Both the position numbers and the translations under genes were made by a program. From Leucobacter komagatae (GTDB lineage: Bacteria; Actinomycetota; Actinomycetes; Actinomycetales; Microbacteriaceae): a stretch of DNA of 64,000 nt. Below the pieces are notes generated by a model. That model did not search any database and was not told the DNA's origin. It worked only from the letters and a program-made list of their open reading frames with translations. Position 1 is the first letter of the stretch; each line of letters starts with the position of its first letter. The stretch is from contig NZ_VFON01000001.1 in the NCBI RefSeq assembly GCF_006716085.1, positions 1,116,001 through 1,180,000 of the forward strand, written 5' to 3'. Below, one piece after another: positions 42,001 through 60,338 of this stretch.

Positions 42001-42633
42001 GTGAGCAAGCTCGAGCGCAACTGGCAGTACACGGAGCAGTATCCGAGTGAGACTGACACGCTCGTGCGTGCCCGGCGGGTGTCGCTCGAACTCGGCATCG
42101 AGCCCGTTTCCCGTGCCGTCTCGGCAGAACTTTCGGCGCTGGCCGTGCTCTCGGGTGCCCGCGCGATCTGCGAGATCGGCACCGGGGTTGGCGTGAGTGG
42201 CCTGTCGCTGCTGCGCCACCGACCCGACGCGATTCTCACGTCGATCGAGATTGAACCTGAGCACCTCCGCGAGGCTCGGTCATTGTTCTCAGAGGCCGGG
42301 ATCCCTGCCTCGCGCGCCCGCCTCGTCGAGGGAGACGCGCGGCACGTCATGCCCCGCCTGAACCTCGCCGCCTACGACATCGTGTTGCTCGACGCTGAGC
42401 AGTCGCAGCTTCTGGAGTACTTCGAGCACGCGCTCGGAATTGTGCGCCCCGGCGGTGCGATCGTCGTGCCGAGCGCGCTGGCGCACGGCCGTGTTGCAGA
42501 CCCGGCAGCCCGCGACGAGTCAACCCAGGCGCTCCGCGACCTGCTGGCTGTCGTGGCTGAGTCTGACGCGATCGCCGCCTCACTCACTCCGACCGGTGAT
42601 GGGCTGCTGACCGTAGTGAAGCTCGACGGCTGA
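42001..42633 (+). CDS. O-methyltransferase, class I SAM-dependent
   Basis: A 210-residue member of the bacterial O-methyltransferase family (COG4122). SAM-binding motif ICEIGTGVGVSGLSLL near residue 57, acidic ILTSIEIEPEHL after strand 2, EGDARHVMPRL and YDIVLLDAEQSQLLEYFE for the metal site. Small phenolic or catechol-like substrates are typical but not known here. Start GTG at 42001 is preceded by GGAGGACAGAGGA. Confidence 0.85.
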   Translation: MSKLERNWQYTEQYPSETDTLVRARRVSLELGIEPVSRAVSAELSALAVLSGARAICEIGTGVGVSGLSLLRHRPDAILTSIEIEPEHLREARSLFSEAGIPASRARLVEGDARHVMPRLNLAAYDIVLLDAEQSQLLEYFEHALGIVRPGGAIVVPSALAHGRVADPAARDESTQALRDLLAVVAESDAIAASLTPTGDGLLTVVKLDG

Positions 42634-42667
42634 GCTGGCTGGGTACTTCTTGCTGCCGGCACCCCGG

Positions 42668-42740
42668 CCCAGCACCCAGCACCCAGCACCCAGCACCCAG
42701 CACCCAGCACCCAGCACCCAGCACCCAGCACCCAGCACAG
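42668..42740. repeat. 7-bp tandem repeat (AGCACCC)
   Basis: Nine full copies of the heptamer plus partial ends, uninterrupted. Because seven is not a multiple of three, any reading through it yields a repetitive artefact in all frames; no gene is inferred. Confidence 0.95.
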
Positions 42741-42743
42741 GAT

Positions 42744-42942
42744 ATGTGTTCTGCATTCCCTCTGCCCTGTCGACGCCGTCACGCAATAGGATCTGCAGAT
42801 CCCAGGGCTTGCGGTCGAAGCGTGGTGCTGCTGGGGCATCGCGACCCGAGCCTTGCCTCCGGCCCCGCAGCGCAAGGCATGTGTTCTGCACTTCCAATGC
42901 TCTGCCGCCGGTGTTAGGGCAATAGGATCTGCAGATCCCAGG
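42744..42942. repeat. Two diverged copies of a ~64-bp element, 135 bp apart
   Basis: Each copy begins ATGTGTTCTGCA (42744, 42879) and ends with GCAATAGGATCTGCAGATCC and AGG (42783-42806, 42919-42942), while the middle differs. The end contains the perfect 14-bp palindrome GGATCTGCAGATCC. The conserved ends with variable middle suggest selection on the ends. Confidence 0.8.
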
Positions 42943-43021
42943 TCTAACGGTCAACGAGCGCACAGCGCGGGTGAGGTGCGGGCACACCACACCCCAAGGC
43001 CCAGCCCGACCCAGTACCATC

Positions 43022-43056
43022 CCCAGCCCAGCCCAGCCCAGCCCAGCCCAGCCCAG
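43022..43056. repeat. 5-bp tandem repeat (CCCAG)
   Basis: Seven perfect copies. With the heptamer repeat and the duplicated element it fills most of the 487-bp gap 42634-43120, where no gene was recognised. Confidence 0.95.
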
Positions 43057-43069
43057 CACCAGTCCAGGC

Positions 43070-43101
43070 ACAAAAAATGAGGGCCCCGAGGGGCCCTCAT
43101 T
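43070..43101 (-). terminator. Rho-independent terminator of the DUF3117 gene
   Basis: A perfect 12-bp stem (43076-43087 with 43090-43101) is followed on the minus strand by TTTTTTG. It ends 20 bp past the DUF3117 stop. Confidence 0.9.
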
Positions 43102-43120
43102 CTGCGCGTGTGCGTGGCTG

Positions 43121-43291
43121 CTAGTCGCCGAGCACGCCCGCAAGCACATCGCGAAGCTCGGCGGCCTCTTCGTCATTGACTGACACCACCAGACGGCCAC
43201 CGCCCTCAAGGGGAACACGCACCACGATAACGCGGCTCTCGCGAACCGCTTCCATTGGCCCGTCTCCGGTCCTTGGTTTCATTGCCGCCAT
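43121..43291 (-). CDS. DUF3117 domain-containing protein
   Basis: A 56-residue protein, nearly identical in pattern to the actinobacterial DUF3117 family: MAAMKPRTGDGPMEAV, VPLEGGGRLVVSVNDEEA and a helical tail. Function unknown. ATG at 43291 has AGGAGG 4 nt upstream. Confidence 0.9.
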   Translation of the reverse strand: MAAMKPRTGDGPMEAVRESRVIVVRVPLEGGGRLVVSVNDEEAAELRDVLAGVLGD

Positions 43292-43396
43292 GACGCCTCC
43301 TCGCATGATTGGTCTATCTCCTCTATTATCTCCTGCGAGGCGGAGTCGCGGAAATCATTTGAGGTTTTTATGCAAAGCGGCGTCATATTGTGATTG

Positions 43397-43410
43397 TTGT
43401 ATGCCTACAA
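43397..43410. promoter_or_regulatory. Possible GntR-type palindrome
   Basis: TTGTA-TGCC-TACAA is an interrupted perfect palindrome of the kind bound by FCD-type GntR proteins. It lies in the AT-rich gap between the DUF3117 gene and the end of the argJ paralogue; no promoter is evident for it. Confidence 0.25.
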
Positions 43411-43477
43411 TGGTCGATTCGCCGCTGTTTTGTTCACTCGGACGCGCAACACGCCGCAGGGCATCGCCCCACGCCCG

Positions 43478-44638
43478 TTAACTCGCGTACGCGCTGTTCT
43501 CTCGGACGTAGTCGACCGTAAGGTCGTTCGTACGGATGCGCGCAGTCGCGTCGCCGGCGTGGAGCTCAATGAGCACCTCGGTGCGCTTTGGCGACAGGTC
43601 GCACTCAGAGACAGGCCGGTCAGGGCCCCCTGCGGTGCAGAGCCGCACCCCGTTAAAGCTCACGTCCACGAAGTAGGGGTCGAACGAGGCGTCAGTCACG
43701 CCGATCGCCGCGAGCACACGCCCCCAGTTTGGGTCTTCACCCGCGATCGCGGCCTTGAACAGGTTGTTGCGGGCGAGCGCGCGCCCAACTTCCTCCGCGT
43801 CTGCTTCTGTTGCGGCGCCCTCCACCATGATGTGGATGTTATGGCCGGCACCCTCGGCGTCAACCTGGAGCTGCTCGGCGAGGTCGTCGCACACGGCGAG
43901 GAGCCCCGCAGTGAATTCGACCTCGGTCGGTGTGACACCGCTCTGCCCCGAGGCAAACGCTGTGACCTGGTCGTTCGTCGACATGCAGCCGTCGGAGTCG
44001 AGCCTGTTGAAGGTCGAGGCGACGGCAGCGCGCAGCGCACGGTCGAGCACCGCGGTTGGGACGACCGCGTCAGTGGTGACCACGACGAGCATCGTCGCGA
44101 GCCCGGGCGCGAGCATGCCCGCGCCCTTCCCCATCGCCCCGATGCGCCAGCCCTCGCCCTCGTGTGTCGCTGTCTTGGTGACCGAGTCGGTGGTGAGGAT
44201 CGCGGCCGGAGCCGTCGTGTCGTCGGCAGCGAGCGCGGCGCTCACGAGCGGCACCCCTCCAAGCACACTCGCCCGGAACTCTTCGCCGCCCGAGCCGATG
44301 AGACCCGTCGAGCAGACGAGAACGTCGGTTGCCCGAATGCCGCGCACCTCGGCGGCGACCGCAGCAGCCGCGAGCTCCACGGTCTCGTAGCCGTAGTCGC
44401 CCGTGAAACAGTTCGCTCCCCCGGAGTTCAGCAGCACCGCGCGGGGCGTGCCTCCCGCGGCCATCACGCTCCTGCTCCATCGGATCGGATGGGCCTGCGC
44501 CCGGTTCTGGGTGAACACGACGGCGCAACTCGGCTCTGGCCCATCGTTCACGACGAGAGCGAGGTCGGGCTTCCCCGAAGACTTGATGCCTGCTGCGACG
44601 CCCGCAGCGCGGAACCCGAGCGGGTATGTGACCGACAT
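43478..44638 (-). CDS. argJ: Glutamate N-acetyltransferase (ArgJ), second copy in catabolic operon
   Basis: A 386-residue ArgJ-family enzyme that moves the acetyl group from N-acetylornithine to glutamate. It self-cleaves between Ala and Thr in [13 protein letters not shown] (near residue 183), and the oxyanion residues in CSTGLIG and the KGAGMLAPG stretch are present. The C-terminus ENSAYAS is canonical. It is clearly paralogous to the ArgJ at 58018-59211 but sits last in an operon with an aldehyde dehydrogenase and an amino-acid ABC transporter instead of argB/argC. All visible catalytic features are intact, so it should be active. GAAAGGGG precedes the ATG at 44638. Confidence 0.88.
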   Translation of the reverse strand: MSVTYPLGFRAAGVAAGIKSSGKPDLALVVNDGPEPSCAVVFTQNRAQAHPIRWSRSVMAAGGTPRAVLLNSGGANCFTGDYGYETVELAAAAVAAEVRGIRATDVLVCSTGLIGSGGEEFRASVLGGVPLVSAALAADDTTAPAAILTTDSVTKTATHEGEGWRIGAMGKGAGMLAPGLATMLVVVTTDAVVPTAVLDRALRAAVASTFNRLDSDGCMSTNDQVTAFASGQSGVTPTEVEFTAGLLAVCDDLAEQLQVDAEGAGHNIHIMVEGAATEADAEEVGRALARNNLFKAAIAGEDPNWGRVLAAIGVTDASFDPYFVDVSFNGVRLCTAGGPDRPVSECDLSPKRTEVLIELHAGDATARIRTNDLTVDYVRENSAYAS

Positions 44639-44682
44639 ACGCGGCCCCTTTCGTGGTGGTGCTGGGCGGTGTAGTGAACTGC

Positions 44683-46167
44683 TTAGCCGAGCAGGGTGGC
44701 TGCGGGAGAGTCGAGGTTGAACTGCTTGAGCGTCTGGAAGTCCTGCATCCCCTCGATGCCGCCCTCCTTGCCGTAGCCGGAGTAGCCGATCCCACCGAAC
44801 GGGCTCGACGCGTCGGCGACGAGCCCCTTATTGATGCCGAGCACGCCGACGTCAAGCGCATGGGCGACGCCAAACGCCCGATCGATATCCTGCGAGAAGA
44901 CATAGCCGGCGAGCCCGAACGGGGTGTTGTTCGCTTTCGCGACCGCCTCAGCGTCCGTCGAGAACGTGCCGACAACGGCGATCGGTGCAAAGATCTCCGC
45001 CGACGCGATCGTCGCCGATTCTGGCACGTTCGTAAGCACGGCTGGGTTCATGAAGAAGCCGTCCCCGCCCGGCTGCGGAGCCGCGCACGCATCTTCCGCC
45101 CCGAGCTCGAGCGCTCCGTCAACGAGCCCGCGCACCTGCTTGCGCGCCTGCCCGCTGATGAGCGGGCCAAGGTCGACCCCGTCGGCGAATCCCGAGCCGA
45201 CGGTCAAAGCGTTCAGCCGCTTCGACAGCTCGGCGGTGAACTCGGCCGCGATCCCGTCCTGCACGAGGAAGCGGTTTGCGGCCACGCAGGCCTGCCCGCC
45301 GTTGCGGATCTTCGAGATCACCGCGCTGTTCACCGCGCGATCAAGGTCGGCGTCGTTGAAGACGAGGAAGGGCGCGTCGCCGCCAAGCTCAAGCGACAGC
45401 TTCTGCACGTGCTGCGCCGACTGTTCGATGAGCATCGAGCCAACCCGGGTGGAACCGGTGAACGACACCTTCTTCAGGCGAGCGTCGCCCATGAGCGTAC
45501 GCGACCAGCCCGATGAATCCGACGTGGTGACGACCTGAAATGCCTCCGGCGGCACCCCCGCTTCGAGAAGCACGTCGCCGAGCAACAGCGAGCTCAGCGG
45601 CGTCGCTTCGGCTGGCTTCAGGATCACCGAGCACCCAGCGGCGAGCGCAGCGGCGGCCTTGCGGGCGCCCATCGCGAGCGGGAAGTTCCAGGGCGTGATG
45701 AGCAGCGCGATCCCGACCGGCTGGCGGGTGACGATGAGCCGCGCTCCCCCGGCGGGCGCCTCCCGGTAGCCGCCGTACGACCGGACGGCTTCCTCTGAGT
45801 ACCACCGCAGGTAGTCTGCGGAGAAGCGCACCTCCGCGCGCGACTCGTCGAGGGGCTTCCCCATCTCCCGCGTCATCGTTGCCGCGATGACCTCGATGCG
45901 CTCAATGAGCAGCTCGGCGGCCCGAAGCAAAACGTTCGAGCGCGCGCGGGCGCTCTGGCCACTCCACGCACGCAACCCTCGCCCAGCGACCTCGAGGCAG
46001 TGGTCGGCGAGCTCGATCGGGGCGTTCGAGACCTGGGTGAAGGCCGCACCCGTCGCGGGGTCAACCACGTCGAAGCGGTCGAGGCTCGTGCTGTCGATCC
46101 CCGGGATACGCGCACCGCCGTCGAAGGAGCTGAGGAACGCGTCGTGGGTCTGAAGGCTGGTCTGCAT
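44683..46167 (-). CDS. Aldehyde dehydrogenase (succinate/glutarate-semialdehyde type)
   Basis: A 494-residue NAD(P)-dependent aldehyde dehydrogenase of the GabD-like group. Motifs: LLITPWNFPLAMGARK, LKPAEATPLSSL, FTGSTRVGS, catalytic Glu in LSLELGGDAPFLVF and catalytic Cys in NGGQACVAANRFLV; the C-terminus has PFGGIGYSGYGKEGG. Likely substrates are omega-semialdehydes of 4-5 carbons (succinate, glutamate or glutarate semialdehyde). It lies 73 bp after the ABC ATPase and 44 bp before argJ on the same strand, suggesting one operon. Start ATG at 46167 has a weak Shine-Dalgarno sequence. Confidence 0.85.
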   Translation of the reverse strand: MQTSLQTHDAFLSSFDGGARIPGIDSTSLDRFDVVDPATGAAFTQVSNAPIELADHCLEVAGRGLRAWSGQSARARSNVLLRAAELLIERIEVIAATMTREMGKPLDESRAEVRFSADYLRWYSEEAVRSYGGYREAPAGGARLIVTRQPVGIALLITPWNFPLAMGARKAAAALAAGCSVILKPAEATPLSSLLLGDVLLEAGVPPEAFQVVTTSDSSGWSRTLMGDARLKKVSFTGSTRVGSMLIEQSAQHVQKLSLELGGDAPFLVFNDADLDRAVNSAVISKIRNGGQACVAANRFLVQDGIAAEFTAELSKRLNALTVGSGFADGVDLGPLISGQARKQVRGLVDGALELGAEDACAAPQPGGDGFFMNPAVLTNVPESATIASAEIFAPIAVVGTFSTDAEAVAKANNTPFGLAGYVFSQDIDRAFGVAHALDVGVLGINKGLVADASSPFGGIGYSGYGKEGGIEGMQDFQTLKQFNLDSPAATLLG

Positions 46168-46240
46168 GGGGGTCTCGGTTCTCTTGACTCTTGGAAAAGT
46201 GGTTGGTGGGTGCGGTTGGCACACCCGGTGCACTTGCGTA

Positions 46241-47026
46241 CTAGGCGTCGGCAGCCTCTTCGCGAACGGAGCGGAGGAAGGCCCTGGTGCGCTCGTGCTG
46301 CGGGTTACCGAACACGGCCTCGGGGGTGCCCGTCTCGACGATGTACCCGTCAGCCATAAAGACAACTCGGTCGGCGACCTCGCGCGCGAACGTCATCTCG
46401 TGGGTCACGACGACCATCGTCATTCCCTCGGCGGCGAGTTGCTTCATCACGTCGAGCACTTCGCCGACGAGCTCGGGGTCGAGGGCGCTCGTTGGCTCGT
46501 CAAACAGCATGATGCTCGGCCGCATCGCGAGCGCGCGGGCGATCGCGACGCGCTGCTGCTGCCCGCCCGACAGTTGCGAGGGATAGGCGTCAGCCTTCTC
46601 GGGGAGCCCGACGCGGGCGAGCAACTCACGTGCGTGCGTCTCGCTCGCCGCGCGCTCGGCGCGCTTCACCTTGAGCGGCGCGAGCATGATGTTCTCGAGC
46701 ACGGTCTTATGCGGGAAGAGGTTGAAGCGCTGGAACACCATGCCAACCTGCTCACGGTGCTTCGCAATCTGCTTTTCGCTGAGCTCGTAGAGCGTATTCC
46801 CGTCGCGCCGGTAGCCCGAGAGCTCGCCGTTCACGGTGAGTAGGCCGTCATCGATGCGCTCAAGGTTGTTGATGCAGCGCAAGAACGTCGACTTGCCCGA
46901 CCCGGAGGGCCCGAGCAGCACGACGACCTCGCCCTTGCCGACCGACATGTTGATGTGCTTGAGCACGTGGTTGTCGCCGAAACGCTTGCTGACGCCCTCG
47001 GCCTGGATCACGGTTTCGACGCTCAT
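46241..47026 (-). CDS. Polar amino-acid ABC transporter ATP-binding protein
   Basis: A 261-residue GlnQ/HisP-type ATPase. Walker [14 protein letters not shown] near residue 35, Q-loop [19 protein letters not shown], signature [17 protein letters not shown], Walker [21 protein letters not shown] and the switch [16 protein letters not shown] are all present and typical of polar amino-acid uptake. Its ATG overlaps the permease stop by 4 bp. Confidence 0.92.
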
Positions 47027-47934
47027 CGTGTTACTCCAAAGGTGTTCTTCAGCCAGCGCTTCTTCATGCTGGGGGCCGCCTGCGCGGCGTAGCCGCGGTT
47101 CATGCGACGCTCAAGCCAGCTCTGCAGGAACGTCAGCACAGTGGTCATAAACAGGTACCAGATCGAGGCGGTGAACAGCAGCTCGATGACCTTGTAGTTC
47201 AGGGTGTAGATGCGGAAGGCCCCGTTGAGCAGCTCAGACACGGAGATCGTGTAGGCGAGCGCGGACGTCTTGAGCATCGCGATCAGCTGGTTGCCGGCGG
47301 GCGGCAGGATGACCCTGAGCGCCTGCGGCAGCACGACCGACGTCATCACCCGACGCTTGCGCATGCCGAGCGCCAGCGCGGCCTCGGCTTGTCCCTTATC
47401 CACGGCGAGGAGGCCCGCGCGGACGATCTCGGACATGTACGAGCCCTCGTTGATTCCGAGCGCGAGGATCGCGGCGAGGAAGGGCGTCATGATCGTGTTC
47501 GTGCTCACTGGCCAGAGGCCGAAGAAGGACACCGTCGGGATTACGAGCGCGATGTTAAACCAGATGAGCAGCTGCACAAGCACGGGCGTGCCGCGGAACA
47601 GCCAGGTGTAGAAGCCCGCCGCGCCAGAGAGCACGCGGTTCTTCGATTCGCGCAGGAGCGCGGTGACCACTCCGAGCACAAGCCCGACGAGCATCGAGAT
47701 CACCGTGAGCTCGAGCGTCGTCACGACTCCGCTCAGAATCTGCGGGTCAAAGAGATACTTCGCGGTGACCTTGTAGTCGATATCGGCAAAGATGAACGCG
47801 GCGACAATGCCCGCGGCGACGAGCAGCACGAGAACTGCCGCGATCGCCGAGCCGACGCTCTTGTGCCTGACGAGCTTGAAGAGCTGCTCCCCCTCTCCGG
47901 GGAGCGAGATCGTCATAGTGTTCGGAGTGGCCAT
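47023..47934 (-). CDS. Polar amino-acid ABC transporter permease
   Basis: A 303-residue HisMQ/GlnP-type permease. After an N-terminal extension and first helix ([21 protein letters not shown]), a second helix contains [19 protein letters not shown]. The permease signature is [14 protein letters not shown] and the EAA loop is [35 protein letters not shown] at 47934; the gene starts 8 bp after the binding-protein stop. One permease gene implies a homodimer. Confidence 0.88.
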
Positions 47935-47942
47935 GCTGACGC

Positions 47943-48845
47943 CTATCGTCCGTTGTTGATGAGTGACTCGTCGAGCGCGAGGTCGCTGACGCCCCACTCG
48001 TCGAGGATCTTGCCGTAGCTGCCGTCGGCGATGATCGCGTTCATCGCTTCGAGGAGCACGTCGCGGAGCTCTGCGTCTGCCTTGTTCAGCATGATGCCGT
48101 ACACGCTGTCGCCGACGGTGAGACCCGGGATCAGCTCGACGGCACCCTCGGACTGCGAGACCGCGTAGCTGCCGACTGCGCCGAGGATGACGCTCGCGTC
48201 GACGCCGCCCTGACGAATCTGCAGGATGCCCGCCTGGTCGCTGTCGAGCATCTGGATGTCGATAGCCTGCTTGCCCTTCGCAACGCAGTCGGCGCTCAGC
48301 TCCTCGACCTGGGTGACCTGGATCGTGCCGCGCGTGCCGGCGATCTTCTTCCCGCACAGGTCGTCGAGCGAAGTGAACTCGCCCACGCGATCTGGTGAGG
48401 TGATGAAGCCGGAAGCCGCCTTGAGGTAGGTGACGTAGTCGTAGACCTCAGCGCGCTCATCCGTGTAGGTCATCGATGCGAGTAGCGCGTCGTAGCGCTT
48501 CGACTGAATGCCGCTGAGGGCTGCCTCGGTCTTCACGTCCTGCCAGTCAAACGGCACGCCGATCTGCTCGCTGAGCGCGCTCGCGATGTCGACGTCGATG
48601 CCCTTCACGGTCTTGCCGTCTTCCTGCAGCCACTCGAACGGCGCGTAGGTGAGGTCACCCGCGTTGACGATCTTGCCCGCCTCCTTGATGCGGTCGGGCA
48701 GCTTCGCGTACAGGGGTGCTTCGGTGTTCACCGTTGCCGCGTCTGAGCTGCCGCCTTCGGCGTCGCTCCCCTGCGCGCAACCGGTAAGCATCAGGACCGC
48801 ACTTCCCACGAGGCAAGCGGCGAGCGCTCCACGCTTGAGGTTCAT
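47943..48845 (-). CDS. Amino-acid ABC transporter substrate-binding lipoprotein
   Basis: A 300-residue family 3 solute-binding protein. Signal peptide with lipobox LMLTGC (Cys near residue 23), then GDLTYAPFEWLQEDGKTVKGIDVDIASALSEQIGV, YDALLASMTYTDERAEVYDY and GTRGTIQV, the ligand-binding blocks for polar amino acids. Acid residues and Trp in the first lobe fit a cationic or polar amino acid, but the ligand cannot be read from sequence. First gene of the operon: GGAGGG 4 nt before ATG. Confidence 0.88.
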   Translation of the reverse strand: MNLKRGALAACLVGSAVLMLTGCAQGSDAEGGSSDAATVNTEAPLYAKLPDRIKEAGKIVNAGDLTYAPFEWLQEDGKTVKGIDVDIASALSEQIGVPFDWQDVKTEAALSGIQSKRYDALLASMTYTDERAEVYDYVTYLKAASGFITSPDRVGEFTSLDDLCGKKIAGTRGTIQVTQVEELSADCVAKGKQAIDIQMLDSDQAGILQIRQGGVDASVILGAVGSYAVSQSEGAVELIPGLTVGDSVYGIMLNKADAELRDVLLEAMNAIIADGSYGKILDEWGVSDLALDESLINNGR

Positions 48846-48932
48846 ATAACCCTCCTTTGGGTATTGGAAAAACTGTGGTGCGAGCGAGCTGGGGTCGGCG
48901 TATGGCCGGGCCTCCGCAGCCGCTCGGGAATC

Positions 48933-48961
48933 AGAATACACAGGTTGCACGTTGCATGCAA
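48933..48961 (-). promoter_or_regulatory. Promoter of the transporter-aldH-argJ operon
   Basis: On the minus strand TTGCAT (48961-48956) and TATTCT (48938-48933) are separated by exactly 17 bp. The expected start is about 48926, giving a leader near 80 nt with GGAGGG before the ATG. Confidence 0.5.
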
Positions 48962-48962
48962 C
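48951..48962. promoter_or_regulatory. Candidate GntR/FCD operator
   Basis: GTTGCATGCAAC is a perfect 12-bp palindrome overlapping the -35 element; a further half-site GTTGCA lies at 48944-48949 inside the spacer. FCD-type GntR regulators bind short palindromes of this shape, and an FCD regulator is the next gene. Repression by promoter occlusion is inferred. Confidence 0.5.
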
Positions 48963-49182
48963 TTACTTTAAGCTTCGATTGCTCGCCCCTTTGAGCACCC
49001 CCTGGATCATCACATTTGCCGTCAGGAGACAGCATGAACACGCATCAGCGAAGCCACCGCCTCGCGCGTTTCACGCGCCCCGGGCGGCCCCCCGCCTACG
49101 GTCTAGGCAGCCCGGACGCACAGAGCGGACCGACTGCCCAGGCCACCCCGCCGGCCCCGGCCGTGCCGAGTGGCCCGCGAAC

Positions 49183-49881
49183 CTACAGCCAGGCCAGCTG
49201 CTCCGCGACCCACTCGGGGCCGTGCTCGGGGTCTCCCCCGGCCTCCTGGGCGATGAGCAGCTGCGCCGTGTTCTTGATGTGGCGCCGCATCTCCGCCGAC
49301 GCCGCCTCGGCGTCACGCCGCTCGATCGCGTCGACGAGCCCCGCGTGGTCGTCCACGAGCTCGCGCCCCGTTCGCGCGGTCGACGTCGTGCCAACGCCGC
49401 GGGTCAGCACAAGGTTTCGCAGGTCGAGCAGCAGCCCCTGCAGCCGCCCGTTCCCCGACGCCTCGGCAATCGAGATGTGGAGGTCTCGGTCGAGCACGAG
49501 CAGCTGCTCGGCGTCTTCCGTCGCCTCACCCATCGCTTCGAAGCAGTCGAGGATCCCGCGCAGCTGCTCATCGGTTCGGGCGCGGGCTGCCTGCCCGGCG
49601 GCCGGCACCTCCAGCATCAGGCGCAGTTGGAACACCTCAAGGAGATCCTCAAGCGTCGTCGCAAGGATCGTCGCGCCGCGATTCTTCTCGATCCTGACCA
49701 TGCCCGCCTGCTCCAGCTGCAGCAGCGCGTCGCGAATCGGCGTCCGCGAGACGCCGATGCGCTCGGCGAGCTGTACGGCGGACACCATCGTCCCCGGTTC
49801 CAGTCGGCCGCTGGTGATCTCAGAGCGAATCTGTTCCATCGCCCGGCGAGCCAAACTGTCTTGTTTCGAGAGCTTTTCCAC
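49183..49881 (-). CDS. GntR-family regulator, FCD type
   Basis: A 232-residue regulator. N-terminal winged helix-turn-helix: AMEQIRSEITSGRLEPGTMVSAVQLAERIGVSRTPIRDALLQLEQAGMV (residues 14-62), the GntR signature. The C-terminal FCD domain (about 80-215) carries metal-ligand-type residues Asp (DRDLHISI), His (same segment), and later His (DDHAGLVDAI and MRRHIKN). FCD proteins often bind acid metabolites such as lactate, glutarate or similar; the effector may be 2-hydroxyglutarate or an amino acid. GTG at 49881 follows a CATAGT hexamer by 6 nt. It lies between the transporter operon and the divergent lhgO-rocD pair. Confidence 0.87.
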   Translation of the reverse strand: MEKLSKQDSLARRAMEQIRSEITSGRLEPGTMVSAVQLAERIGVSRTPIRDALLQLEQAGMVRIEKNRGATILATTLEDLLEVFQLRLMLEVPAAGQAARARTDEQLRGILDCFEAMGEATEDAEQLLVLDRDLHISIAEASGNGRLQGLLLDLRNLVLTRGVGTTSTARTGRELVDDHAGLVDAIERRDAEAASAEMRRHIKNTAQLLIAQEAGGDPEHGPEWVAEQLAWL

Positions 49882-49914
49882 ACCCCCACTATGGCACTTC
49901 TGAAAGAGGAACGT

Positions 49915-51138
49915 ATGCACACACGACGCATTGCCGTCATCGGAGGCGGCATCATCGGCGCCTCCGTCGCAGCCCAGTTGACGACACGCAATGACGCAAA
50001 CTCCGTTGTCCTGTATGAAAAGGAATCCGCCCCGGGCACACACCAGACCGGGCACAACAGCGGCGTCGTACACGCGGGCCTCTACTACCAGCCGGGCAGC
50101 CTGAAGGCCCGACTCACTCGGCGCGGCGTCGAGCTGCTCCACGCGTACAGCGAGTCGCGCGGGATCCGCTATGACGAGTGCGGCAAACTCGTCGTCGCGC
50201 ACACCGAGAAGCAGCTCGGCCAGCTCGACGCGATCCTCGACAAGGCGCGCGCGAACGGGGTGCCGGGCGTCGCGATCATCGGCGAAGACGCGATGCGGGA
50301 GATCGAGCCGCACTGCGTCGGGCGGGCCGCGATCCACTCCCCCCACACCGCGATCGTCGACTACCCGGGAGTCACCCGCGCGCTGCTCGACGATGTGCGC
50401 GCAGCCGGCGGCGAGGTGCGCCTCGGCACCTCGGTGTCGCGCATCACGCGCCAGGGTGCGGAGCAGATCGTGCACTCGTCAGCCGGCAGCCAGGCGTTCG
50501 ACTACGTGATCGCGTGCAACGGCCTCCAATCAGACAGGCTGGCGAAGCGGTCTGGCGCGGGCAAGTATCCCGCGATCGTGCCGTTCTCGGGCGACTACTA
50601 CAAGCTCACACCCGAGACCGCGAAGCTCGTGAACGGGCTGCTCTACCCCGTGCCAGACCCCGACTACCCGTTCCTCGGCGTGCACCTCACACGCACCGTC
50701 GACGGCGACGTCACCGTCGGCCCGAACGCCTTCCTCTCGTTCGCGCGCGAGCAGTATCACCGCCTCGGTTTCAACGTCCGCGATGCCCTCGAGATCGCGT
50801 CCTCGGGCGCGTTCTGGCGCTTCGCTGGCGGCAACTTCGGCGAGGCAATCGATCAGCTCCGCACCGCGAACAAGCGGTCGTTCCTCGCCGGCGCCCAGGA
50901 GTTCATCCCCGAGCTCGCCTCCGAGGATCTCAGCCCCGGCCTCCGCGGCGTGCGAGCGCAGGCCATGAACCAAGACGGCACGCTTGAGGACGACTTCGTG
51001 ATCCAGCGCGTCGACAATGCGGTGTTCGTGCGCAACGCGCCCTCCCCCGCCGCGACCTCGGCGATGGCGATCGCCGAGCACATCATCGAAGAAATTCTCG
51101 CTGAAGATCGCCTGGTCGAGCCCCAGCGCGGCGCCTAG
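49915..51138 (+). CDS. lhgO: L-2-hydroxyglutarate oxidase/dehydrogenase
   Basis: A 407-residue FAD enzyme of the LhgO/L2HGDH family, oxidising L-2-hydroxyglutarate to 2-oxoglutarate. Rossmann motif AVIGGGIIGASVAAQL at residues 7-22; the family-specific HQTGHNSGVVHAGLYYQPGS near residue 46; VTVGPNAFLSFAREQY, and the terminal RGVRAQAMNQDG with DFVIQR. ATG at 49915 has AGAGGA 4 nt upstream. It is divergent from the regulator and 52 bp before the rocD-like gene. In other bacteria it works with the glutarate hydroxylase CsiD/GlaH, which is absent here. Confidence 0.87.
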   Translation: MHTRRIAVIGGGIIGASVAAQLTTRNDANSVVLYEKESAPGTHQTGHNSGVVHAGLYYQPGSLKARLTRRGVELLHAYSESRGIRYDECGKLVVAHTEKQLGQLDAILDKARANGVPGVAIIGEDAMREIEPHCVGRAAIHSPHTAIVDYPGVTRALLDDVRAAGGEVRLGTSVSRITRQGAEQIVHSSAGSQAFDYVIACNGLQSDRLAKRSGAGKYPAIVPFSGDYYKLTPETAKLVNGLLYPVPDPDYPFLGVHLTRTVDGDVTVGPNAFLSFAREQYHRLGFNVRDALEIASSGAFWRFAGGNFGEAIDQLRTANKRSFLAGAQEFIPELASEDLSPGLRGVRAQAMNQDGTLEDDFVIQRVDNAVFVRNAPSPAATSAMAIAEHIIEEILAEDRLVEPQRGA

Positions 51139-51190
51139 CCGTCGCTGCCACCACCACTTCCCCAACCACCACACTCGAAGGAGTACCCGC

Positions 51191-52423
51191 ATGACCGAAA
51201 CCACCACCCAGACCGCAACCGAGATCGCGATCGCCCAGACCGAGCGCGCCGCCGCCTCGAACTACGCCCCCGTCCCGCTCGTGCTCACCGAGGGCAACGG
51301 CGCAACGGTCACCGACATTGAGGGCAAGACCTACCTCGACTTCCTCGGCGGCTTCTCCACGATGCTCTTCGGGCACCGCCCGCCCCGCATCACCGCGGCG
51401 GCGCACGCCCAGCTCGACAGGCTCACGCTCACTGCGCGCGCGTTCTACAACGATGAGCTCGCGGCCTGCGTGACCGAGCTCACGGAACTCGCGGGCTTCG
51501 AGCGCGTGCTGCTCATGAACACCGGCGCCGAGGCCATCGAGACCGCGATCAAGGGTGCCCGCAAGTGGGCGCACGAGAACCGTGACCTCGCCGCAGACGA
51601 GGGCGTCATCATCACGTTCTCGCGCAACTTCCACGGCCGCACGACGACGATCATTTCGGGCTCCGACGACCCGGTCGCTCGCGAGGGGTACGGCCCGTAC
51701 ACCCCCGGCTTCGTCACCGTCCCGTTCGGCGACATGGATGCGGTTCGCTCGGTCGCGGCCGCGTCGCCGGTTGTCGCGGTGCTCATCGAACCGGTGCAGG
51801 GCGAGGCAGGAGTGATCCTTCCCCCCGAGGGGTTCCTGCAAGAGCTTCGTGCGTTCACCGCCGAGAACAACATCGTGTTCATCGCTGACGAGGTGCAGTC
51901 GGGCATGGGCCGCACCGGCAAGCTGTTCGCGACCGAGCACTTCGGCGTTCGCCCCGACCTCATTGCGGTCGGCAAGGTGCTGAGCGGCGGCATTCTGCCG
52001 GTCTCGGCGGTGCTGGGCGACAGCAAGTTCCTCGGGGTGTTCACGCCGGGGAGCCACGGGTCGACCTTCGGCGGCAGCCCGTTCGCGTGCGCCGTCACGC
52101 GCAGTGTTGTCGCGGAGCTTCGCGATCCTGCTTTCCTCCCGGGCGTTGTCGCGCTCGGCGGCGTGCTCTCGGACGCCCTCGCTGAGCTCGCTGAGCTGCC
52201 TGAGGTGACCGCGGTGCGCTCGATTGGCCTGTGGGCAGGCGTCGACATTGACCCGGAGTTCGCGCCGGCGAAGGCCGTCGCCGAGGCGCTCCGTGCCCGC
52301 GGTGTGCTGGTGAAGGACACGCAGGGCAAGACCCTCCGCATGGCGCCGCCCGCGGTCGCGACGGAAGGGGAGGTCCGTGAGGCGATCCGCCTGCTCGGGG
52401 AGTCGATCACTTCCCTCCGCTAA
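51191..52423 (+). CDS. rocD: Ornithine aminotransferase-like class III aminotransferase
   Basis: A 410-residue PLP enzyme. The match to ornithine delta-aminotransferase is strong: ASNYAPVPLVLTEGNGATV, ITAAAHAQLDRLTLTARAFYND, LLMNTGAEAIETAIKGARKWAHE, NFHGRTTTIISGS, ADEVQSGMGRTGK, catalytic Lys in VGKVLSGGILPVSAVL, and GSHGSTFGGSPFACAV. Expected reaction: ornithine + 2-oxoglutarate to glutamate 5-semialdehyde + glutamate. 5-Aminovalerate or another omega-amino acid cannot be ruled out. GAAGGAG lies about 8 nt before the ATG. Cotranscribed with lhgO; a stem-loop follows. Confidence 0.82.
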   Translation: MTETTTQTATEIAIAQTERAAASNYAPVPLVLTEGNGATVTDIEGKTYLDFLGGFSTMLFGHRPPRITAAAHAQLDRLTLTARAFYNDELAACVTELTELAGFERVLLMNTGAEAIETAIKGARKWAHENRDLAADEGVIITFSRNFHGRTTTIISGSDDPVAREGYGPYTPGFVTVPFGDMDAVRSVAAASPVVAVLIEPVQGEAGVILPPEGFLQELRAFTAENNIVFIADEVQSGMGRTGKLFATEHFGVRPDLIAVGKVLSGGILPVSAVLGDSKFLGVFTPGSHGSTFGGSPFACAVTRSVVAELRDPAFLPGVVALGGVLSDALAELAELPEVTAVRSIGLWAGVDIDPEFAPAKAVAEALRARGVLVKDTQGKTLRMAPPAVATEGEVREAIRLLGESITSLR

Positions 52424-52431
52424 CCCAATTC

Positions 52432-52476
52432 TTCCGTTGGGTGCCAATTTCCTGCGAAAATTGGCACCCAAAGGAA
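52432..52476 (+). terminator. AT-rich stem-loop after rocD
   Basis: A perfect 14-bp stem (TTGGGTGCCAATTT at 52437-52450 with 52458-52471), 7-nt loop, extended by TTCC/GGAA across one mismatch, followed by TATTTG. It probably ends the lhgO-rocD transcript. The rest of 52424-52620 holds triple CCCCACTGCA-like repeats and smaller AT-rich palindromes, and no gene. Confidence 0.65.
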
Positions 52477-52620
52477 TATTTGAGGCGTTTGGGCGGCGGG
52501 GTTGGGACGGGGCCGGGCGCACCGCCCCCACCCCACTGCACCCCACTGCACCCCAAATAATCGATTGCGCTCCAAATTCCCGCCGAATTTGAGGGGTAAG
52601 CGAAAATTTGCGGGGGTATG

Positions 52621-52673
52621 GGCGAGTACGAAGGCCCCGGAGCGTCACACGCTCCGGGGCCTTCGCACTCGCC
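52621..52673 (-). terminator. Long hairpin terminator of gltA
   Basis: Arms 52621-52645 and 52649-52673 match over 25 bp with one mismatch; the inner 16 bp are perfect with a CAC loop. It begins 4 bp after the gltA stop codon. No T-tract on either strand. Confidence 0.85.
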
Positions 52674-52676
52674 GAA

Positions 52677-53969
52677 CTAGCGGTCGAGGTGGCGTTCTGC
52701 CGAGCCCAAGTACAGCTGCTGCGGGCGGCCGATCTTCGTCTGCGGGTCGAGGCGAGCCTCGCGCCACTGCGCGATCCAGCCGGGCAGGCGCCCGATCGCG
52801 AACAGCACGGTGAACATGCGCGTCGGGAAGCCCATCGCCTTGTAGATCACGCCGGTGTAGAAGTCGACGTTCGGGTAGAGCCTGCGCTCCTTGAAGTAGT
52901 CATCCTCGAGCGCAATCTGCTCGAGCTCCTGGGCCAGTGCGAGCAGCGGATCGTTCACACCGAGCTCCTCGAGCACCTTGGCAGCCGAGTCCTTGACGAT
53001 GCGCGCACGCGGGTCATAGTTCTTGTAGACGCGGTGCCCGAAGCCCATGAGCTTCACCCCGTCTTCCTTGTTCTTCACCTTCTCGACGAAGGTCTTCACG
53101 CTCTGCCCCGAGTCGCGGATCTGCGCGAGCATGTCGAGCACGGCCTCGTTTGCGCCGCCATGCAGCGGGCCCGAGAGCGCGTTGATGCCAGCCGACACCG
53201 ACGAGAACATGTTCGCGCCCGTCGACCCGACGAGGCGCACGGTCGAGGTTGACGCGTTCTGCTCGTGGTCTGCGTGAAGGATGAGCAGCTTGTCGAGCGC
53301 GTCGACGAGCACCGGGTTCATCTCGTACGATTCGGCCTTATTGCCGAAGTTGAGGCGCAGGAAGTTCTCAACAAAGCTCAGGTTGTTCTTCGGGTAGAGG
53401 AACGCCTGGCCGATCGACTTCTTGTGCGAGTAGGCGGCGAGCACGGGCAGCTTCGCGAGCAGCCTGATCGTGTTCACCTCGACGAACTCGGGCACTGCGG
53501 TGTCGAGCGAGTCTTCGTAGTAGGTCGACATCGTCTGCAGCCCGCCCGAGAGCATCGCCATCGGGTGCGCGGTGTGCGGCACGGCCTCGAAGTAGTACCG
53601 CATGTCTTCGTGCAGCAGGGTGTGCCGGCGAATCTCGTTGTCAAAGCTCGCAAGCTCATCCGCAGTCGGCAGAACGCCGTAGATGAGGAGGTACGCGACC
53701 TCAAGGAAGGTCGACGCCTGGGCAAGCTCATCGATCGGGTAGCCGCGGTAACGCAGGATTCCAGCATCGCCGTCGATGTAGGTGATCTCTGACTTGGTCG
53801 AGGCCGTGTTTACGAAGCCGTAGTCGAGCGCCGTGTAGCCGCTCTGCTTCGTCAGCGTGCTGACGTCAATGGCGTCGGGCCCGTCAACGGACTTGATGAT
53901 CGGGAGCTCGGCGGTTCCCCCAGGAAAGCTCAGCTTGGCGGTGGCCTGAGCCGCAGGTGTTTCAGTCAC
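52677..53969 (-). CDS. gltA: Citrate synthase
   Basis: A 430-residue type II citrate synthase joining oxaloacetate and acetyl-CoA at the entry of the TCA cycle. Catalytic residues are in SGPLHGGANEAVLDML (His), MGFGHRVYKNYDPRAR (His) and NVDFYTGVIYKAMG (Asp). ILRYRGYPIDELA and LHADHEQNASTSTVRL are typical. GTG at 53969 was chosen because AGGAGA lies about 5 nt upstream. It has its own promoter; TAAGGT near 54031-54036 on the minus strand is a possible -10. Confidence 0.95.
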   Translation of the reverse strand: MTETPAAQATAKLSFPGGTAELPIIKSVDGPDAIDVSTLTKQSGYTALDYGFVNTASTKSEITYIDGDAGILRYRGYPIDELAQASTFLEVAYLLIYGVLPTADELASFDNEIRRHTLLHEDMRYYFEAVPHTAHPMAMLSGGLQTMSTYYEDSLDTAVPEFVEVNTIRLLAKLPVLAAYSHKKSIGQAFLYPKNNLSFVENFLRLNFGNKAESYEMNPVLVDALDKLLILHADHEQNASTSTVRLVGSTGANMFSSVSAGINALSGPLHGGANEAVLDMLAQIRDSGQSVKTFVEKVKNKEDGVKLMGFGHRVYKNYDPRARIVKDSAAKVLEELGVNDPLLALAQELEQIALEDDYFKERRLYPNVDFYTGVIYKAMGFPTRMFTVLFAIGRLPGWIAQWREARLDPQTKIGRPQQLYLGSAERHLDR

Positions 53970-54752: not shown

Positions 54753-56441
54753 ATGAACACCCATGATGCACGCCCCTCCCCCAGTCCTTCCGGCTCCCCC
54801 AAACCTTCCGGTTCCCCTAACGTCCCTCGCCCGACAACTCTCACAGCCGCGTGGCGAACCCGAGTTGAGTCGACCCCCGACGCTCCGTGCATCACCTATT
54901 TCGACACGACGCTCTCAGTAACCGCTACCGACCGCTTGAGCAAGTCGCTCGCCGCCGGGCTGCTCGACCGCGGGGTGGGCCCGGGCGGCCGCGTCGCGGT
55001 GTGGCTGCAAAACATCCCCCACTTCGCCATTTCGATGCTCGCGATCTGGCACGTGGGTGGCATCGTTGTGCCCCTGAACCCCATGTACCGCGAGCGCGAG
55101 CTGCACACTGTGCTCAAGTCGTCTGGTGCAGTCGGGCTCATCTGCACGCCTGAGCTTGTCGAAGTCGCCGGCGCCGCGGCAACGGGCACCGCGCTCTCGT
55201 GGGCACTCGCCGCCGACGACACCGAGTTCCAAAGCGAGAACGACCCGCGAGTCTTTCCGCCGCGGCAGGGTGGCGAAGCCGACCTCGCCACGGCCGACCT
55301 TCCATTCGCGCTCGCAGAGCTCAGCGAAGTGTTTGCAGCAAACACAGGGCGGTTTCCGGATCCCACCGAGCGAAGACCAGACGACATCGCGATGCTGAGC
55401 TACACCTCCGGCACGACCGGGCCACCGAAAGGAGCGCAGGCAACCCATTCGTCGCTGCTGTTCGTCGCGCTGAACTTCATTGAGTGGGCAGAGCTCGACG
55501 CGCGCGACAGGATGCTCGCGCTCGCGCCGCTCTTCCACATCACTGGCTCCGTGATCATCGGCCTCGGCACACTGCTCTCGCAGGCTTGCCTCGTCTTCCT
55601 GAACCGCCCGCGGCCTGACGTCGCGCTCGAAGCGTTCTCCAGGCACAAGATCACGGTCACCGTCGCCCCGATCACGATGTACACCGCGCTGTACGAGCTG
55701 CCGAACGCGCGGGCCGCAGACTTCGCGACGGTGCGCGAGCTCTTCACCGGCGGCGCCCCCGTGCCGCCCGCGAAGGTTGCGGCGTTCGAACAGCGCTTCG
55801 GGAAGTACATTCTCAACGCGTACGGCCTCACCGAGTCGAACGCCGGCATCATTGGCGTGCCGCGCGGCGAGCGCGCCCCCGTCCACGAACCGACGGGCAC
55901 GCTGTCAATCGGGCGGGCGATGCCGGGTGTATCACTCAGGGTGCTCGACGAGGCGGGGAATGAGGTGCCCGCCGGCGCCGCGGGCGAACTCGAGCTCTCA
56001 GGTGACTTCCTCGCGAGCGGCTACTGGCGCGACCCGGCCGCGACCGAGACCGCGTTCCCCGCTGGGCGGCTGCTCACCGGCGATGTCGCGATCATAGACG
56101 ACGAGGGCTGGGTGTTTCTCGTTGATCGCATCAAGGATCAGATCAACACCTCCGGGTACAAAGTCTGGCCTCGCGAGGTCGAAGACGTCATCTACGAGCA
56201 CCCCGCCGTTCGCGAGGTCGCCGTCGTCGGCGAACCAGACGACTACCGCGGCGAGGCCGTGCTCGCCTACGTCTCACTCAGGGAAGGGCAGCGCGTCTCA
56301 TCGCAGGAGCTCGTGAGTTTCGCACGCGAGCGCCTCGCGGCGTATAAGACACAGCGCAGGATCGTGTTCATCGACGAGCTTCCGAAGACCCTGACGGGGA
56401 AGATCAAGCGCCGCGACCTGCGTCGCAAGGTTCGCGGCTAG
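54753..56441 (+). CDS. Long-chain acyl-CoA ligase (AMP-forming)
   Basis: A 562-residue ANL-superfamily ligase activating a carboxylic acid to its CoA ester. P-loop LSYTSGTTGPPKGAQ near residue 215, A5 region LNAYGLTESNAG, A7 motif LTGDVAIIDDEGWVFLVDRIKDQINTSG and the catalytic Lys in LPKTLTGKIKRRDLRRK. The chain length of the substrate is not evident. The first ~30 residues are Ser/Pro-rich (SPSPSGSPKPSGSPN). ATG at 54753 has GGAG 7 nt upstream; a start at 54741 would add four residues. Its stop overlaps the stop of the converging A24 gene. Confidence 0.87.
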   Translation: MNTHDARPSPSPSGSPKPSGSPNVPRPTTLTAAWRTRVESTPDAPCITYFDTTLSVTATDRLSKSLAAGLLDRGVGPGGRVAVWLQNIPHFAISMLAIWHVGGIVVPLNPMYRERELHTVLKSSGAVGLICTPELVEVAGAAATGTALSWALAADDTEFQSENDPRVFPPRQGGEADLATADLPFALAELSEVFAANTGRFPDPTERRPDDIAMLSYTSGTTGPPKGAQATHSSLLFVALNFIEWAELDARDRMLALAPLFHITGSVIIGLGTLLSQACLVFLNRPRPDVALEAFSRHKITVTVAPITMYTALYELPNARAADFATVRELFTGGAPVPPAKVAAFEQRFGKYILNAYGLTESNAGIIGVPRGERAPVHEPTGTLSIGRAMPGVSLRVLDEAGNEVPAGAAGELELSGDFLASGYWRDPAATETAFPAGRLLTGDVAIIDDEGWVFLVDRIKDQINTSGYKVWPREVEDVIYEHPAVREVAVVGEPDDYRGEAVLAYVSLREGQRVSSQELVSFARERLAAYKTQRRIVFIDELPKTLTGKIKRRDLRRKVRG

Positions 56442-57079
56442 CAGCCGAGGATCCCGGCGGCCGCCGCAGTGGCGGTCGCCGCAGGCACCGCCGTCGCAGC
56501 GGTCGCCGCCAGCGCAAGCCAGGACGCGCCGAGGATGGCTGGGCCGGCGGCGATCTCTCGCCGCCCGGTGGCGAAGGCGACAACACCTGCGACCGCGAAC
56601 GCCACGGCGAGGGCGGCGAGCAACCAGGCAGCGGCCTCGGCCACGCCATCGCTCGCGAACGGCCACACCGCGGCGAAGGCCGCGACGGGGAGCAGCTTCA
56701 CGTCGCCCCCGCCAATGCCCGGTCGCGCTACAGGGCGGGCCGCGGGGCGGCGTGCCGCGATCCAGAGCGAGAAGGCGGCCGCGAAGGCAAGCGCGGCGAT
56801 GAGGATCGGCCAGAGCGCCGCCCGCCACTCACCTGCGAGGGCGCGAACGAGCGTGAGCCAGCCCACCGTCCACAGGGTGATCCCGGCGAGCAGCCGATTC
56901 GGCAGGATCCGGTCGCGGAGGTCTGCGCGGATGAGGAGCGCGCCCCAGCCGCCGTAGCCCGCGTAGCCAACGACGGCGAGGCGCTCGACGCCCGCGGCGG
57001 GAACGAGGAGCGCGAAGGCGGCTCCACCCGCCACGGCGCCGAGCGCACCGAGCGCGGCCTCGGATGCGCGCGACGCCAC
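56438..57079 (-). CDS. A24-family prepilin peptidase-like protein
   Basis: A ~213-residue membrane protein, rich in Ala/Val, with about six hydrophobic segments. The two catalytic aspartates of type IV prepilin peptidases are visible: RADLRDRILPNRL near residue 55 and the GxGD motif PGIGGGDVKLLPVAAFA near residue 120. No N-terminal methylase domain is present, as in TadV/FlaK-type enzymes that process type IVb/Tad pilins. The start is uncertain: GTG at 57079 and TTG at 57091 are both in frame and neither has a good ribosome binding site. It follows argB by about 25 bp. No pilin gene is in the window. Confidence 0.7.
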   Translation of the reverse strand: MASRASEAALGALGAVAGGAAFALLVPAAGVERLAVVGYAGYGGWGALLIRADLRDRILPNRLLAGITLWTVGWLTLVRALAGEWRAALWPILIAALAFAAAFSLWIAARRPAARPVARPGIGGGDVKLLPVAAFAAVWPFASDGVAEAAAWLLAALAVAFAVAGVVAFATGRREIAAGPAILGASWLALAATAATAVPAATATAAAAGILGC

Positions 57080-57104
57080 CGCCGCGCGCAAGCCCGTGCG
57101 GCAG

Positions 57105-58010: not shown

Positions 58011-58017
58011 CTCGCTC

Positions 58018-59211
58018 CTAGCTCGAGTACGCGGAATTCTCGTGCACGTAGTCGTGCGTGAGGTCGTTCGTGCGAACCGTCGCGGCGAAGGTGCCCGCGA
58101 AGAGCTCGATCTCGACGTGCGTCTTCCGCGGCGTCAGGTCGCACTCCTCGACGGGCCGGTCGGGCGCGCCAGCGTGGCACAGTCGCACCCCGTTGAAGCT
58201 CACGTCGACGGCGTACGGGTCGAACGCCGCGTCGGTGGTGCCGATCGCGGCGAGCACGCGACCCCAGTTGGGGTCGTTGCCGAAGATCGCGGCCTTGAAC
58301 AGGTTGTTGCGCGCGACTGAGCGGGCGACCTCGACCGCGTCGTCAACGCTCGCGGCGCCGCGCACCTCGATGTCGATGTCGTGGCTCGCGCCCTCAGCGT
58401 CTGCCTGAAGCTGCGCTGCGAGCGAGTCGCACACGCCCGCGAGCGCGGCGGCGAACTCGTTCTCGTCTGGGGTGACCCCCGACGCGCCGCTCGCGAGCAG
58501 CGTCACCTGGTCGTTCGTCGACATGCAGCCGTCGGAGTCGAGCCTGTCGAAGCTCACCCCGGTCGCGCGGCGCAGCGCAGCGTCAAGCGCCGCACTATCG
58601 AGCTTCGCGTCGGTCGTGATGACGACGAGCATCGTCGCGAGCCCTGGCGCGAGCATGCCCGCGCCCTTCGCCATAGCGCCGATCGTCCAGCCATCACCCT
58701 CGTGCACCGCTGTCTTCTCGACGGAGTCGGTGGTGAGGATCGCGCCGGGCGCCGTCGTATCGTCTGCGGCGAGCGCGGCGACGAGGCCGGGAACGCCGTT
58801 CACGATCTTGTCGCGGAAGCTCTGGTCGCCGGTGCCGATGAGCCCGGTCGAGCAGACGAGCACGCGCTCGGCTCGGTCGTCACGCACGTCAGCGGGCACC
58901 GGCCCCTGCGGCTCGCTAGCGAGCTCGCGCGCGACGGCCTCAGCGGTGAGCCTCGTCGTCTCGTAACCGAAGTCGCCCGTGAAGCAGTTCGCGCCGCCAG
59001 AGTTCAAGATCACGGCGCGCGCTGCACCGTTCTGCGCGACCTTGCGGCTCCACAGGATCGGGTTCGCCTGGGCGCGGTTCGACGTGAACACGACGGCGCT
59101 CGCGGGGGCGGGGCCGTCGTTCACGACGAGCGCGAGGTCGGGCTTGCCCGAGGTCTTGAGCCCGACGGTGATACCCGCCGAGCGGAATCCTGCTGGGGTT
59201 GTTACGGTCAC
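58018..59211 (-). CDS. argJ: Glutamate N-acetyltransferase/amino-acid acetyltransferase
   Basis: A 397-residue ArgJ that recycles acetyl groups from N-acetylornithine to glutamate. Self-cleavage site [13 protein letters not shown] near residue 188; oxyanion hole in [10 protein letters not shown]-terminus [12 protein letters not shown] at 59211 overlaps the argC stop by 4 bp, so it is the biosynthetic copy; a paralogue is at 43478-44638. Confidence 0.93.
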
Positions 59212-60284: not shown

Positions 60285-60310
60285 TTGCACCCTTTCTCGC
60301 GCACCTCTAT

Positions 60311-60338
60311 TCTGGCACCTCGCGGCCGAGGTGCCAGA
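60311..60338 (-). terminator. Terminator of the enoyl-CoA hydratase gene
   Basis: A perfect 12-bp stem (60311-60322 with 60327-60338) with a CGGC loop lies 11 bp after the echA stop on the minus strand and upstream of argC. No T-tract. Confidence 0.75.

Follow-up and report, generated by a model that had tools for sequence, protein, structure and literature searches.

An eight-gene island of Leucobacter komagatae as a possible unit for the uptake and breakdown of an ornithine with a masked alpha-amine

What compound would a bacterium take up and degrade with an amino acid importer, an ArgJ, an aldehyde dehydrogenase, an ornithine-type aminotransferase and an L-2-hydroxyglutarate (L-2-HG) oxidase encoded side by side? 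This combination is found in Leucobacter komagatae (assembly GCF_006716085.1, contig NZ_VFON01000001.1), within a stretch of 64,000 nucleotides (positions 1,116,001 to 1,180,000) that we call the window and to which all coordinates below refer. A sequence-only reading had proposed a nine-gene unit importing ornithine or N-acetylornithine for conversion to glutamate, with breakdown of 5-aminovalerate as a rival. Using open reading frame and family profile searches, we could confirm its gene families, orientations and short gaps within the operon, but eight open genes were counted, not nine. A minus-strand operon runs in the order binding lipoprotein, permease, ATPase, aldehyde dehydrogenase (ALDH) and ArgJ2, the GntR/FCD regulator gene is co-oriented with it, and lhgO and rocD are divergent:

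43478..44638, minus strand: argJ2, a second ArgJ, final gene of the import operon (NF003802 and TIGR00120 scores; tree)
44683..46167, minus strand: aldehyde dehydrogenase, nearest to SSADH/GabD (PF00171; TIGR01780; ATG start)
46241..47026, minus strand: polar amino acid ABC transporter ATPase of the EhuA/GlnQ/TcyN type (family profiles)
47023..47934, minus strand: ABC transporter permease (PF00528 and TIGR01726, above cut-off)
47943..48845, minus strand: solute-binding lipoprotein without the alpha-ammonium Asp (PF00497)
48945..48961, minus strand: operator-like palindromic site TTGCATGCAACGTGCAA, overlapping a -35-like TTGCAT
49183..49881, minus strand: GntR/FCD regulator, divergent to lhgO (PF00392, PF07729; GTG start inferred)
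49915..51138, plus strand: lhgO, L-2-hydroxyglutarate oxidase (NF008726; six substrate residues)
51191..52423, plus strand: rocD-like gene for an aminotransferase of the ornithine type, with Phe for Tyr at the specificity position (TIGR01885)
58018..59211, minus strand: canonical argJ1 in argC-argJ-argB, outside the island (open reading frame context and profiles)

The permease and ATPase genes overlap by 4 nt, the gaps from the ATPase gene to the ALDH start and from the ALDH gene to argJ2 are 73 and 44 nt, and 33 nt separate gntR from lhgO. In the profile searches the frames for the permease, ALDH, gntR and lhgO began as many as 12 codons away from the probable start, which was partly corrected. 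An Rfam search of 42600-52700 gave no match. Between the neighbouring O-methyltransferase gene and the island (42660-43070), two tandem repeats, of CAGCACC and of AGCCC, and a block of about 60 bases occurring twice can be seen by eye, and directly downstream of argJ2, at about 43122-43300 on the minus strand, lies a small conserved-looking open reading frame that we take to resemble DUF3117.

The complete island is present in three of 54 Leucobacter genomes (G000, the genome of the window, G123 and G148), with identical gene order, the same position between a tatB/O-methyltransferase pair and gltA, and protein identities of 75-97% for G123 and G148; a fourth genome, G156, has a 3,320-base contig on which ArgJ2 and a portion of the ALDH occur next to this same flank. 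The island is more than a chance assembly, since both order and place persist in G123 and G148 and purifying selection acts on ArgJ2 (dN/dS about 0.07 and about 0.10, the latter for G000 and G148; the dN of the G148 ALDH, a frame artefact, was set aside). In metagenomes, the genes for ArgJ2, RocD and the binding protein probably lie together in the sets P0007/P0123/P0245 (longest contig 9,413) and P0018/P0124/P0246 (18,383), as probably do those for RocD and the binding protein in P0125/P0247 (6,046). A scan of genome contigs for RocD, which may omit records near the window's own genome, gave 111 relatives, and one of the 80 loci kept, from Leucobacter sp. G161 (L045, 84% identity), is island-type, the next being 53% identical.

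A search of 396 order genomes detected LhgO in 116 (E up to 1e-60) and RocD in 102 (E up to 1e-70). Besides G000 both occur in 43 genomes, on different contigs in 24 and on the same contig in 19, where the closest spacing is 38.9 kb. None of the 396 genomes other than G000 has LhgO adjoining RocD, an adjacency that is, as far as we looked, peculiar to the island. Two whole ArgJ genes were found only in G000 among 120 genomes of the family, two others having two fragments each. In these sets, conservation of the neighbourhood was seen in a few Leucobacter genomes only. Around lhgO in seven non-Leucobacter genomes (L025-L031), the other seven island genes found no match except for an ATPase of 29-30% identity in two of them. 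In G120, an lhgO lies 6 kb from a cluster (L020 12673-16251) made up of a GntR gene, a gene for a class III aminotransferase with 32% identity to RocD and an SSADH-like one with 47% identity to the ALDH of the island.

The binding protein gives a first indication of the ligand. At D221, the equivalent of Asp161 in LAO, the nine island binding proteins have L (six) or N (three), while 56 of 60 homologues have D; R131, the carboxylate Arg, and D64 are kept in all nine. With the alpha-ammonium Asp absent in 9/9, these proteins do not qualify as LAO-type binders of free basic amino acids, which argues against the import of free ornithine proposed earlier and leaves N-acetylornithine supported as a possible ligand. 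The same Asp is replaced by Ser and Asn in Agrobacterium NocT and OccJ, which bind N2-substituted arginine or ornithine, and no binding of free Arg or Orn is seen for NocT (PMC5740067, PMC4192606). Two observations stand against reading the change as a masked alpha-amine: OccJ, with Asn at this position, still binds free Arg, Lys and Orn with micromolar affinity, with no change on restoring Asp (PMC5740067), and Thr126, by eye the match of LAO Ser72, which also holds the alpha-amine, is kept in 9/9.

Both NocT and OccJ are among the structural neighbours of our model of the binding protein, and an opine-like ligand, N2-(1,3-dicarboxypropyl)ornithine, might be considered, which the LhgO homologue of the island would cleave oxidatively to ornithine and 2-oxoglutarate. 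The replacement of the same Asp as in NocT and OccJ (PMC5740067), the DAO fold family to which profile searches assign LhgO, and products that are both substrates of RocD would suit such a compound. We nevertheless regard it as very unlikely, as LhgO has the full residue set for L-2-HG, the Trp of the opine pocket (Trp71/77) is Thr106 in 9/9 island proteins (other pocket positions being compared by eye) and ArgJ2 would be left without explanation. The island shares with noc/occ a PF00497 binding protein lacking the alpha-ammonium Asp, but differs in this Thr and in having no opine oxidase pair among its eight genes.

The aminotransferase belongs to the ornithine type, in agreement with the earlier proposal of an import-plus-catabolism unit with an ornithine-type omega-aminotransferase: it scores 401 bits with TIGR01885 (cut-off 378.4), although the narrower NF003145 is not reached (393.4 against 656), and the nearest RocDs outside the island clade, among the matches listed, are at most 57% identical. 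The residue numbers of human OAT (Tyr55, Tyr85, Arg180, Glu235, Lys292, Arg413) were placed on the island RocD on what we take to be equivalent positions. On this alignment, all 113 comparison RocDs (the top matches listed out of 8,000 scored) have Tyr at island position 55, the equivalent of Tyr85, where 8/8 island RocDs have Phe; Thr and Leu stand in place of Ala and Asn at positions 57 and 59. The equivalents of Tyr55, Arg180, Glu235, Lys292 and Arg413 are kept in 8/8. In human OAT, Tyr85 governs the choice between ornithine and GABA, and the alpha-amine and alpha-carboxylate of the substrate are held by Tyr55 and Arg180 (PMC13327489, PMC11277095). Tyr to Phe is a mild change, and it points the same way as the change in the binding protein. 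As AstC prefers acylornithines yet touches the acyl group directly at few points (PMC3590144), the residues of RocD do not name its substrate.

A score above the cut-off for ornithine transaminases, with the other active-site residues kept, tells against a masked alpha-amine and for the route proposed earlier, in which free ornithine or N-acetylornithine would be converted to glutamate and LhgO would merely top up 2-oxoglutarate; the next aminotransferases listed for G000 are 32-35% identical to the island RocD. This route we consider unlikely. The Asp of the binding protein and the specificity Tyr of RocD are lost, and a need for the ALDH as glutamate-semialdehyde dehydrogenase is not supported. 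Elsewhere in the genome, an open frame of 1,265 residues contains a proline dehydrogenase domain, and its readable part runs, by eye, into an aldehyde dehydrogenase domain; this PutA fusion already supplies P5C dehydrogenase, so that a second glutamate-semialdehyde enzyme is not needed. The island ALDH scores highest with succinate-semialdehyde dehydrogenases, without reaching their cut-offs (TIGR01780, 486.3 bits against 646; NF008415, 424 against 828), compared with 258 bits for the glutamate-semialdehyde dehydrogenase model NF002852, and its best PDB match is E. coli GabD.

The island ArgJ is a second copy, as the canonical argJ1 lies 13 kb away in the same window. At 56438-60320, argC-argJ-argB is not directly followed by argD or argF, and an open reading frame named by eye as prepilin-peptidase-like overlaps the 3' end of argB. 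ArgJ2, present in all three complete islands, scores 385.8 bits with NF003802 (cut-off 351) and 284.3 with TIGR00120, below the cut-off of 298; its Thr182 falls on residue one of the 3it4 beta chain in the alignment, and the nucleophile Thr of the cleavage site and its surroundings are kept. We generated a tree from seven ArgJ2 proteins, 16 of the 115 canonical Leucobacter rows and 14 further loci (13 from other genera and G014 from the same genus), with P0005 excluded. The ArgJ2 proteins form one clade (100/99) that joins the ArgJs of Leucobacter (100/99; 26 rows, two of them loci of other genera) and stands apart from the remaining 11 loci of the family, in a midpoint-rooted tree that does not fix the place of ArgJ2 among the Leucobacter ArgJs. 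Duplication of the local biosynthetic argJ is the natural, if unproven, reading of this topology. Between G000 and G148, ArgJ2 is 75% and ArgJ1 92% identical; judged from these sequences, ArgJ2 changes faster than ArgJ1, yet is constrained. It varies at N301, H379 and E380, constant in 127-129 of 129 other ArgJs (this comparison excluded P0005 as well as P0002 and P0004, which nearly duplicate G123 and G148), and this variation counts against the N2-acylornithine reading favoured below. We also considered a reverse ArgJ cycle, resembling an acetyl-protected AST pathway, in which ornithine is acetylated from N-acetylglutamate, transaminated and oxidised back; it was rejected since it needs free ornithine, against the binding protein.

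LhgO scores 493.5 bits with the equivalog NF008726 (cut-off 299) and keeps the six substrate residues of dmL2HGDH (S88, H92, Y289, L299, H302, R393), with the motifs HNSGVVHAG, YPVPDPDYPFLGVH and GVRAQA present; in Drosophila L2HGDH these six bind 2-oxoglutarate (PMC10726252). From the equivalog match and the six residues, L-2-HG is likely to be its substrate. All three motifs are found in 12 of 15 loci, being split over frames in L023 and unmatched by the motif pattern in L022 and L024. The LhgO of G140 (L023 5308-6428) is itself split into two frames, probably by a frameshift or an assembly error.

In E. coli, L-2-HG comes from glutarate by CsiD (PMC6265302), and CsiD (PF08943) was found in none of the 54 Leucobacter genomes, the E. 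coli control being positive. This weakens the other proposal of the sequence-only reading, breakdown of 5-aminovalerate (from lysine) through glutarate, which is now the least probable of the readings weighed here, even though the gene kinds fit csiD-lhgO-gabDTP (lhgO, class III aminotransferase, SSADH-like ALDH, transporter and GntR; PMC8206213) and the ligand has no alpha-amine; ArgJ2 and an ornithine-type transaminase would also not be accounted for. In Pseudomonas putida W619, which lacks csiD, the GntR protein LhgR, encoded next to lhgO, responds to L-2-HG and, in the EMSA, not to six other compounds tested (PMC8206213).

An lhgO adjoining a GntR gene in a csiD-less strain, the arrangement given for LhgR (PMC8206213), would fit a different substrate, 5-amino-2-hydroxyvalerate, with a hydroxyl for the alpha-amine, or a precursor of it. 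RocD would give 2-hydroxyglutarate semialdehyde, the ALDH L-2-HG and LhgO 2-oxoglutarate, with the GntR protein sensing L-2-HG as LhgR does. These three enzymes would become consecutive steps without need of CsiD, LhgO has all six L-2-HG residues, and the changes in the binding protein and RocD are compatible with such a ligand. G125 and G140 have a related pair of GntR and LhgO (GntR 45%, LhgO 54-56% identity), which also speaks for it: in G125 the pair adjoins genes for a YdiJ-like D-2-HG dehydrogenase and for a protein resembling dihydroxy-acid/L-arabinonate dehydratases (their scores, 424 and 636 bits, stay under the cut-offs of those equivalogs), a neighbourhood of 2-hydroxyglutarate chemistry if the names hold. 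Possibly these loci encode a pathway via both 2-hydroxyglutarate enantiomers; a carboxymuconolactone-decarboxylase-like gene, named by eye, is also seen in them (L021 2376-9566, L023 1909-9116). Still, 5-amino-2-hydroxyvalerate appears rather unlikely, as ArgJ2, although in all three complete islands, would have no role, and none of six names for these compounds was found in the literature searched. We know of no abundant natural source of it.

Upstream of the import operon, a promoter block containing the palindrome is identical in the three genomes, the palindrome covering the -35-like TTGCAT, which is followed by a 17 nt spacer and TATTCT (promoter elements by eye). Searched with up to 3 mismatches, the 17-mer has a single match in its own genome, an exact one, and the reversed-pattern control also has one. 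The palindrome is absent from the gntR-lhgO gap.

Taken together, we tentatively favour, at somewhat less than even chances, a regulated unit for the uptake and breakdown of an omega-amino C5 acid with the ornithine skeleton, the alpha-amine of which would be masked or replaced, and in the first place an N2-acyl-L-ornithine. The alpha-amine is taken to be masked because the binding protein, the transaminase and ArgJ2 all point there, and L-2-HG to be an intermediate because LhgO and its GntR partner do. N2-acetylornithine would be the simplest N2-acylornithine candidate, with 5-amino-2-hydroxyvalerate ranked second. The ABC system, from its family and residues, would import the masked compound; ArgJ2, a recruited biosynthetic copy, would pass the N2-acyl group on to glutamate (or water); the delta-amine would go to 2-oxoglutarate through the RocD variant, either before or after removal of the acyl group; the ALDH would oxidise the omega-semialdehyde to a C5 dicarboxylate; LhgO would convert L-2-HG to 2-oxoglutarate, the amino acceptor; and the GntR protein would repress until an intermediate, plausibly L-2-HG, binds. 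An N2-acylornithine would account for the binding protein, RocD and ArgJ2, but would leave LhgO without a clear role, and transfer by ArgJ would yield N-acetylglutamate, for which the eight genes include no deacetylase. To our knowledge, no single substrate accounts for ArgJ and LhgO together.

A wider claim, that of a new catabolic pathway leading alpha-masked or alpha-hydroxy ornithines into L-2-HG without CsiD, with a duplicated ArgJ as the catabolic acyl-remover, must be called doubtful. In its boldest form the N2-acyl group would be 2-hydroxyglutaryl-like and ArgJ2 would free ornithine and L-2-HG, giving the acceptor for RocD one-for-one, which would explain everything; we know of no natural ornithine with such an N2-acyl group. 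Literature searches on N-acetylornithine catabolism (PMC5372011, PMC3590144) or uptake gave nothing that matches the island gene set. Those on ornithine acetyltransferase structure gave no paper on this set, those on a hydroxyglutarate oxidase, ornithine aminotransferase and argJ cluster in Leucobacter only unrelated papers, and no paper on Toxoplasma OAT with N-acetylornithine was found.

All gene kinds of the island are known, and its plan resembles csiD-lhgO-gabDTP with CsiR of E. coli and Pseudomonas, with lhgO, a class III aminotransferase, an SSADH-type ALDH, a transporter and a GntR protein in common. By contrast, the island has no CsiD, a RocD-type enzyme for GabT, an ABC importer for GabP, and ArgJ in addition. 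As in P. putida W619, a GntR gene adjoins lhgO in a genome without detected csiD, the likeness to LhgR-type regulation being one of gene arrangement; lhgO was studied alone in that strain, whereas in the island an uptake and transamination unit accompanies it. For an acylated substrate, the delta-transamination and the oxidation of an acylglutamate semialdehyde would recall the AST pathway, but no Ast protein is among the eight genes by the families found, and ArgJ stands in the place of the desuccinylase. The argJ of the arginine operon, the likely parent of ArgJ2, shares with it the fold and the cleavage-site Thr, while ArgJ2 lies in an import operon and evolves faster. If the reading holds, the island would add a bacterial route with L-2-hydroxyglutarate as a planned intermediate; a biosynthetic transacetylase would have turned catabolic, and the island would point to an unrecognised nutrient.
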